From assembly GCA_017461315.1 (NCBI GenBank), contig JAFTYR010000005.1:1-64000 (forward strand): a DNA stretch of 64,000 nt, written 5' to 3'. Below the pieces are notes generated by a model. The model had not been told where the DNA came from. It did not search any database and saw only the letters and a list, made by a program, of their open reading frames with translations. The stretch is from Burkholderiaceae bacterium (lineage in GTDB: Bacteria > Pseudomonadota > Gammaproteobacteria > Burkholderiales > Burkholderiaceae_F). A program made the position numbers and the translations under genes. Shown in pieces: positions 51,831 through 54,567 of the stretch (within the stretch, counting starts at the first letter, position 1; each line of letters begins with the position of its first letter).

Positions 51831-53378
51831 TTATTCTAATTCCGAAGCTTTTAAGTCACTAATTCGATATCCAAAAATAAAGAGTATTAAAAGATAAGCA
51901 AAACCAGCAATAGCAATTGTGGCTAATAAAACAATCAACTGATAAGGTCCGTTCAAAGAATTCAGGCTTAAAAGATTTTGTTCACAGACATAAAGAATTG
52001 TGAATAAAACGATGCATCCAATAAACACTGTTAGAAAAAGTTTTTTCCAACCATTTGTGGGACGGTATTGACCTCTTTTATAAAGTACTACCAACAATAG
52101 CAAGGCGTTAATACAAGCGCCTAAACCAACGGATAAAGCCAAACCAGCATGGGCAAAAAGAGGAACATTGATAAGGTTGAGCATTTGCGTAGCAACTAGG
52201 GCAACACAAGCGATTTTGACGGGGGTTTTTATGTCTTTTTGAGAATAAAAGCCTGGGGCCAGAATCTTAATGGCAATAAGGCCAATTAATCCACAGGAAT
52301 AGCCAAGCACGGCCATAGAGGTTTGTTCAATATCATAAGAAACGAAGCGAGAACTTCTAAAAAGAACGTCGATCAATTCTTTGCTGATACAGGCTAGGCC
52401 AATTGAGGCCGGAACAGCAAATACGACGACTAATTTCAAACCCCAGTCAAGTAATTTGTTGTAGCGATCAAGGTCCTTTTTGGCATAAGCCGAAGATAAA
52501 CTAGGTAGTAGTACGGTACCAAGGGCTACTCCAAGAAGTGCTGTCGGAAATTCCATGAGTCGGTCGGCATAAGCTAACCAAGTGACTGATCCTTCTTGTA
52601 AGAAAGAAGCAATATTAGTATTGATTAGAATCGATATTTGGGCTACACCAACAGCAAAAAGAGCAGGCGCCATTAATTTAATAACTTTTCGTACTGAGGC
52701 ATCTCTTATGGCAGAAAAAGGGTTGATTGGATGAGGAAGTAAACCTATTTTCTTAAGAGAAGGAAGTTGAACTAAAAGTTGCAACAAGCCTCCAGACATG
52801 ACTCCTATCGCCAGAGCATAAATGGGGCGATCGAGCTTTGGTGCTATGAATAAAGTTGCTGAAATGAGCGATAAATTTAATAGAACAGGGACCACAGCTG
52901 GAATTGCAAAGTGCTTCCAGGTGTTAAGAACCGCTGAACAGAAAGCTACCATAGACATGAAAAAAATGTATGGGAACATGTAACGGGTCAATTCAGTAGC
53001 AATATTAAAGGCGTGAGATTGTTGCGCTAAACCTGAAGCAATAATCCAGACCAAGATAGGAGCGATAAAAACGCCAAGGATGCTGACTGCAAGAACGACC
53101 ATCGCGAGTACGGATGCAATGCGATCAATGAATTGTTTGGTTTCTGAAAATTCTTTATTTTCCTTGGAGTCGGCAAGCATGGGAACAAATGCTTGTTGGA
53201 ATGCACCTTCAGCGAAGAGTCGACGTAGTAAATTGGGTAGACGAAAAGCTACGTAATATGCGTCTGTATCGCTACTAACGCCGAAGACACGAGCGATGAG
53301 GATATCTCGGATGAGTCCTGTAACTCGAGACAATAATGTCATGCCAGAAATGACAGCGGCACTTCGAAAAAGACTCAA
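51831..53378 (-). CDS. murJ: Lipid II flippase MurJ
   Basis: 515 residues with about 14 membrane helices. The N-terminus SAAVISGMTLLSRVTGLIRDILIARVFG and the segment RLPNLLRRLFAEGAFQQAFVPML are diagnostic of MurJ/MviN. It flips lipid II across the inner membrane for peptidoglycan synthesis. Divergent from rpsT, a common beta-proteobacterial arrangement. Monocistronic with its own terminator. Confidence 0.96.
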   Translation of the reverse strand: MSLFRSAAVISGMTLLSRVTGLIRDILIARVFGVSSDTDAYYVAFRLPNLLRRLFAEGAFQQAFVPMLADSKENKEFSETKQFIDRIASVLAMVVLAVSILGVFIAPILVWIIASGLAQQSHAFNIATELTRYMFPYIFFMSMVAFCSAVLNTWKHFAIPAVVPVLLNLSLISATLFIAPKLDRPIYALAIGVMSGGLLQLLVQLPSLKKIGLLPHPINPFSAIRDASVRKVIKLMAPALFAVGVAQISILINTNIASFLQEGSVTWLAYADRLMEFPTALLGVALGTVLLPSLSSAYAKKDLDRYNKLLDWGLKLVVVFAVPASIGLACISKELIDVLFRSSRFVSYDIEQTSMAVLGYSCGLIGLIAIKILAPGFYSQKDIKTPVKIACVALVATQMLNLINVPLFAHAGLALSVGLGACINALLLLVVLYKRGQYRPTNGWKKLFLTVFIGCIVLFTILYVCEQNLLSLNSLNGPYQLIVLLATIAIAGFAYLLILFIFGYRISDLKASELE

Positions 53379-54079: not shown

Positions 54080-54111
54080 GCAAAAGAAAAGGGTAACTTT
54101 ACGATACCCTT
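54080..54111 (-). terminator. Terminator of the Fur-box small ORF unit
   Basis: AAGGGTA (54089-54095) and TACCCTT (54105-54111); read on the minus strand the stem runs into TTCTTTTG. It lies just after the small ORF. Confidence 0.7.
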
Positions 54112-54119
54112 ATGACAAT

Positions 54120-54206
54120 TTAACCCAATAGCCATGCCAAAAGTAAAACAGTGCAAAAAGGAGCGAGGGTTAAACGAATTAACTGTGCATCAAAGAAGAC
54201 TCTCAT
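54120..54206 (-). CDS. 28-residue hydrophobic micropeptide under a Fur box (candidate)
   Basis: The ATG at 54206 has GAGGGG six bases upstream; another ATG at 54212 is too close to it. The peptide begins MRVFFDAQLIRLTLAPF and continues as a hydrophobic segment ending LLLAWLLG, so it looks like a single-helix membrane peptide. Promoter and Fur box at 54233-54261 and a terminator at 54080-54111 frame it exactly. I do not recognise a family; it is not HemP. It could also be an iron-regulated small RNA whose ORF is incidental, but the strong ribosome binding site argues for translation. Confidence 0.6.
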   Translation of the reverse strand: MRVFFDAQLIRLTLAPFCTVLLLAWLLG

Positions 54207-54232
54207 ACTCATCCCCTCAAAAAAGATGATTT

Positions 54233-54261
54233 ATAGTATCATAAATGAGAATCATTCTCAA
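54233..54261 (-). promoter_or_regulatory. Fur box within a promoter (minus strand)
   Basis: TGAGAAT-C-ATTCTCA (54246-54260) is a perfect 7-1-7 palindrome fitting the Fur consensus TGANAAT-N-ATTNTCA. It overlaps TTGAGA (-35, minus strand 54261-54256) and the spacer to TACTAT (-10, 54238-54233), which are 17 bp apart. Binding there would block RNA polymerase when iron is sufficient. Confidence 0.75.
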
Positions 54262-54267
54262 ATTAAA

Positions 54268-54567
54268 TTAATTTAAATCTTCTTCTGCTTCTTGTGAGTT
54301 AACCTTACCGTGTTTAAACGGTAATACAGCGGGGAAGGCGATTAAGTCATCGTCTTCCATTTGCATCAAAGCGTTGGAACCGAGTTCAGCGCTATTAAAT
54401 GCGTAATTTAACTTGGCATAAACGTTTGCGATGTCTTCTTCAAGGATCTCTTGAACTTCATCGGGATTGTCTTCAATCTGTGCAATCAGTGCTTCTAAAG
54501 CTTCTTTTGCATCATTTAGTGTTGCCAGACTCCACTGTGCATCGAATAAATCTTCATTACTTGTCAT
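54268..54567 (-). CDS. Small acidic protein, unrecognised
   Basis: 99 residues from the ATG at 54567 (GGAG upstream; the frame is open to 54621 but without a site). It is strongly acidic and helical (ALIAQIEDNPDEVQEILEED), with no signal peptide or cysteines. No known family is recognised. It lies divergent from aroC, and its stop is seven bases from the Fur promoter's -35, so read-through into the micropeptide unit is possible. Confidence 0.7.
   Translation of the reverse strand: MTSNEDLFDAQWSLATLNDAKEALEALIAQIEDNPDEVQEILEEDIANVYAKLNYAFNSAELGSNALMQMEDDDLIAFPAVLPFKHGKVNSQEAEEDLN

Follow-up and report, generated by a model that had tools for sequence, protein, structure and literature searches.

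The minus strand of the window (the whole 64,000-nucleotide stretch of DNA that was analysed) carries, within positions 54080-54261, a compact unit that is best explained as a Fur-repressed gene whose transcript would also, or instead, give a membrane peptide. Judged from the sequence, this reading has a probability of about 0.5. The host is a gut bacterium akin to Parasutterella, and the unit is likely a Fur-controlled small gene. The finding is sound but modest, and the body of the unit has no relative of the same sequence in the data that were searched.

In the mechanism that we propose, holo-Fur bound to the palindrome at 54246-54260 would occlude the -35 element and the spacer of the promoter in the iron-replete state. 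When iron falls the promoter would open, and iron starvation would turn on a stand-alone Fur-repressed gene with a short transcript of approximately 148 nt that ends at about 54080. Its promoter geometry and size would place the unit in one class with short Fur-driven units of related genera, which resemble RyhB-type small RNAs (sRNAs). The transcript would also, or instead, serve as mRNA for a single-span membrane peptide of 28 residues, which might tune a membrane iron or respiratory complex.

Anatomy of the unit and its neighbourhood

The Fur box TGAGAATGATTCTCA is a perfect 7-1-7 palindrome (54246..54260, minus strand, as are all parts of the unit), supported by its sequence, by a genome pattern count and by enrichment in relatives. 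A promoter scan placed a -35 element, TTGAGA, over the edge of the box (54256..54261), in a geometry that recurs in Fur-driven sRNA units of relatives. The -10 element TACTAT (54233..54238), with TG immediately upstream, follows after a 17-bp spacer and sits 7 nt past the box, and from its position transcription is predicted to start at about 54227. A Shine-Dalgarno (SD) sequence, GAGGGG (54213..54218), is found 6 nt ahead of ATG 54206, where the 28-codon open reading frame (ORF) MRVFFDAQLIRLTLAPFCTVLLLAWLLG begins (54120..54206, also in the ORF list, with its TAA ending at 54120). An alternative in-frame ATG at 54212 would give 30 residues, but directly abuts the SD sequence. About 8 nt past the stop codon comes an intrinsic terminator, recognised by sequence and folding (54080..54111, tail TTCTTTT). 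Its hairpin AAGGGTA/TACCCTT has a 7-bp stem (54111-54105/54095-54089), an energy of -8.9 kcal/mol and a shuffle z of -2.8, and the loop of 9 nt was overlooked by a simple terminator scanner with a loop limit of 8. An earlier note had described the palindrome over the -35 and spacer, the 17-bp spacing, the SD sequence, the 28-codon ORF and the terminator, and all of these agreed with the sequence letter by letter.

The unit is flanked on one side by rpsT (plus strand) and on the other by a gene for an acidic protein of 99 residues (54271-54567, minus strand). The acidic protein, which is conserved across much of the family (42 of the 67 genomes), has no significant match in Pfam or NCBIfam, and the earlier description of both neighbours, the latter as lacking a known family, was accurate. 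Synteny was considered and set aside: the acidic gene of relatives has other neighbours, and neither a Fur box nor a small ORF comes after it where the downstream side was read. The unit occurs once in its own genome, a 1.55-Mb draft that is 84.7% complete.

Fur boxes in the genome and in the family

The pattern TGANAATNATTNTCA without mismatch is found at one site in the genome of the host, which is the window unit. With up to one mismatch there are 8 sites versus 9 for a reversed-pattern control, i.e. no enrichment. In 18 relatives from the family, the perfect pattern occurs at 41 sites versus 2 for the reversed control, and at 24 of the 41 an SD-led ORF of at least 60 residues begins within 250 bp. 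The genes preceded by these boxes include feoA (PF04023) and an AhpC/TSA peroxiredoxin gene, and others that, by sequence impression only, encode TonB-type receptors, radical-SAM haem-utilisation proteins and porins. One FUR-family protein is encoded in the genome of the host (PF01475, 141.6 bits, contig C24). When the whole unit was used as a DNA query against the 67 family genomes, the top matches were short and confined to the Fur box and promoter (query positions approximately 15-34), indicating that the box is typical of the family and the unit body specific to the lineage; beyond the box no DNA homologue was found in these genomes. Judged by sequence, Fur likely binds the palindrome, and a real Fur-controlled small transcript very probably arises from the unit.

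Other Fur-like boxes of the family were noted in passing. One, TGAGAATAATTCTTA (L055 735-749), lies ahead of a gene for a DUF6110-like protein of 96 residues, after which comes an ORF resembling a metal P-type ATPase, and small genes of the DUF6110-like type are also found behind Fur-like boxes in G067, G085, G020 and G062. In Parasutterella G020 (L094 800, plus strand) and in Turicimonas G025 (L101 800, plus strand), a perfect Fur box directly precedes a small protein with a CPMCESH/CLMCESH-type motif that by eye is HMA-like.

Short Fur-driven units in related genera

Several of the 41 sites in relatives are followed not by a protein gene but by a unit of about 90-170 nt that ends in a terminator. 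By their anatomy these units look like RyhB-like sRNAs, a function that we infer. A first family consists of a GAATC...GATTC hairpin followed by CUCCUUG, (A/U)AAUGGGG and a strong terminator. Two Turicimonas genomes each carry it twice (in tandem in G013), G004 has it as well, and two Parasutterella genomes have diverged forms, one of them, G032 (P. muris), as a tandem pair; the tandem arrangement in two genomes recalls PrrF1/PrrF2. Copies are located at L109 589-749 and 801-961, L102 801-965 and L098 323-441 (all plus strand), at L082 642-815 and L092 687-815 (both minus strand, the latter with an upstream tandem copy) and at G025 C10:4856-4927.

A covariance model, R1, was built on this Turicimonas/Parasutterella/G004 family. 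With this model, copies from Turicimonas and G004 score 70-86 bits, and the one in G020 scores 17.8 bits. The best score in the host genome was 17.6 bits at a site without a Fur box, leaving nothing convincing, and at the window unit there was no match with E values up to 10. The window unit could therefore fill the role of the family that goes undetected in its own genome. The PBP1A locus, site of the Turicimonas sRNA, was not found in the host draft, an empty answer of little weight. Against Rfam, no family came near its cut-off for the first family, apart from a sub-threshold ncS54 match of the P. muris copy (L092); at 35.3 bits versus a cut-off of 43, and with the iron column for ncS54 empty in the source paper, this similarity was discarded.

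A second type of unit is common to G069 and G027 of genus g16 and has the order ACCAACTGAAGA..TGTTGGGGTCG..TTTCTCCTGC in about 170 nt with a terminator (putative sRNAs from approximately 1530 in both L160 and L166, plus strand). Single candidate short Fur units with terminators and no ORF were found in G018 and G064 (L087 800 and L162 1500, plus strand).

The gap of 7 nt that separates box and -10 in the window unit recurs in seven of 11 such units, most of which also share its 17-bp spacing to a TTGANA -35; the count is somewhat generous since the scoring favours a gap of 7 on ties. None of the 11 has an SD-led ORF of more than 4 codons, and the window unit is alone among the units compared in having one. 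The window unit and those of relatives are alike in promoter geometry and length, and unalike in sequence. The CUCC and GGGG motifs common to both are too short for a claim of homology. The R1 family in particular shares with the window unit the promoter geometry, length class, terminator and a CUCC-type motif, but lacks sequence homology to it, has the CUCC and GGGG motifs in the reverse order, and has no ORF.

Peptide, small RNA or both

Among dinucleotide-shuffled versions of the transcript, 0.18% have the combination of SD sequence, ATG and an ORF of at least 28 codons, and 0.08% have an SD sequence with a transmembrane-like ORF, whatever its start codon. The codon log-odds of the ORF, 0.15 bits per codon, puts it at the 36th percentile among gene windows and, when set against 309 random short ORFs, in their top 3.6%; for synonymous codon choice the corresponding positions are the 55th percentile and the top 2.6%. 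Other reading frames have negative log-odds. It should be kept in mind that the codon and SD statistics come from one 28-codon sequence, with the codon usage measured over 27 codons. The hydrophobic helix that had been proposed for the peptide is seen in the AlphaFold2 model of the 30-residue form as a single helix of residues 3-29 (mean pLDDT 89.5). Accessibility of the ribosome binding site, at the 16th percentile of 25 genes in the window, is within the ordinary range, and the SD sequence and AUG are predicted to be mostly paired in the fold of the full transcript.

No homologue of the peptide was found in the 67 family genomes, where the relatives are of other genera, in 399 genomes of the order (an overlapping set) or in PLSDB plasmids, nor did it match any Pfam or NCBIfam family. 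Every weak match that was inspected turned out to be in another frame, within a longer ORF or in an unrelated short frame that has no Fur box. A degenerate DNA pattern for MRVFFDA gave 17 matches in viral contigs, none of them related. With no homologue anywhere searched, there is no sign of selection on the frame. The micropeptide is plausible, without homology to any sequence in the genomes searched, and we regard translation of the ORF, dual function included, as about even to slightly favoured. The interpretation in the earlier note is supported in part: its self-contained Fur unit is borne out by anatomy, box statistics and the geometry in relatives, and each of its two product readings, micropeptide and sRNA, is plausible.

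It is quite possible that the unit is purely noncoding, i.e. a Fur-repressed sRNA like RyhB or PrrF that base-pairs to messages coding for iron-using proteins, e.g. via an exposed CUCCU, and that the ORF is incidental. Its sequence anatomy is that of RyhB-like sRNAs: short, stand-alone, Fur-driven and closed by an intrinsic terminator. This reading gains weight because the noncoding Fur units of relatives match its promoter geometry and length: stand-alone Fur units without an ORF are found in several further genera of the family, mostly with the same promoter geometry. Also, no copy of the sRNA family found in relatives was detected in the host genome. The CUCCU stretch, which lies within the ORF (54159..54163), is predicted to be mostly unpaired (0.71) and would be a possible pairing site, and CUCC-type motifs are also present in most of the Fur sRNA units of relatives; on the other hand, CUCCU arises in about 10% of shuffles. 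The fold z-score at first seemed to discriminate decisively between coding and noncoding units, but was withdrawn since bodies without terminators overlap (-0.6 for the window unit, inside the range of -2.1 to 0.1 for relatives). The full-length fold (z of -1.6 and -0.45 in two calculations) and the terminator are weaker than in most relatives, and there is no sequence relation to the relatives' sRNA families. At the unit no Rfam family reached its cut-off, and a ctRNA_p42d match on the terminator (22 bits versus a cut-off of 50) was taken as chance. Moreover, the SD-led ORF and its gene-like codon usage would be a coincidence if the unit were purely noncoding. A RyhB-like sRNA would have no ORF and this unit has one, which does not exclude the class since dual-function sRNAs exist.

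The two functions may also be combined. A dual-function Fur sRNA would be the RyhB counterpart of this lineage, pairing with target mRNAs while encoding a new 28-residue membrane peptide, and would be a translated counterpart of what is, in every sister genus examined, a noncoding unit; on present evidence we consider this rather unlikely. RyhB and PrrF likewise are short stand-alone units with a Fur box over the promoter and an intrinsic terminator, and in EHEC ryhB is reported also to encode a short peptide, RyhP (PMC5331693). They differ from the window unit, which has a hydrophobic, SD-led ORF of 28 codons and no Rfam family at its cut-off. BrrF, an iron sRNA of Burkholderia, is the 3' part of the Fur-controlled hemP mRNA and has no Fur box of its own (PMC7377471, PMC5688073). 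HemP/BrrF resembles the window unit as another small-ORF transcript of Burkholderiales under Fur control, one to which an sRNA belongs, but the short distance from stop codon to terminator leaves the window unit no room for a BrrF-like 3'-derived RNA. Its peptide has no HemP match in Pfam, in line with the earlier claim that the two are distinct. MntS, CydX and KdpF are small membrane peptides, the last two with a single hydrophobic helix. The window peptide is of their size class and shares that helix with CydX and KdpF, but has no sequence or profile match to any of the three.

Explanations other than translation or a noncoding sRNA are, taken together, improbable. The ORF could be a leader peptide, or the unit a remnant of a decayed Fur-regulated gene, without a present product, as the lack of a homologue might suggest; this is very improbable, as no minus-strand gene is found downstream for more than 700 bp (the next starts at 53378), rpsT is on the plus strand, and all parts of the gene are intact and compact. 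Peptides of the TisB/Ibs class are short with a single hydrophobic helix. The window peptide resembles them in length and helix, but a type I toxin with its transcription tied to Fur is more improbable still, with a single genomic copy, no family match and, by a consensus scan only, no promoter-like site nearby on the plus strand for an antisense RNA. Chance assembly around a palindrome that is no working Fur site is the least probable, for although about 0.24 perfect sites are expected per genome (9/37, our own estimate from the reversed-control count), the box lies exactly over a promoter with the spacing of relatives' Fur sRNA promoters and is followed by SD sequence, ORF and terminator.

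A literature search on Fur in Parasutterella or Sutterella turned up no account of small transcripts driven by Fur in gut Sutterellaceae. Both the window unit and the sRNA units of its relatives are concrete candidates for iron-starvation transcripts. The most interesting reading, if true, is a translated and possibly dual-function version of an sRNA-type unit: one lineage may hold the translated version of an otherwise noncoding unit, which bears on the origin of small proteins.
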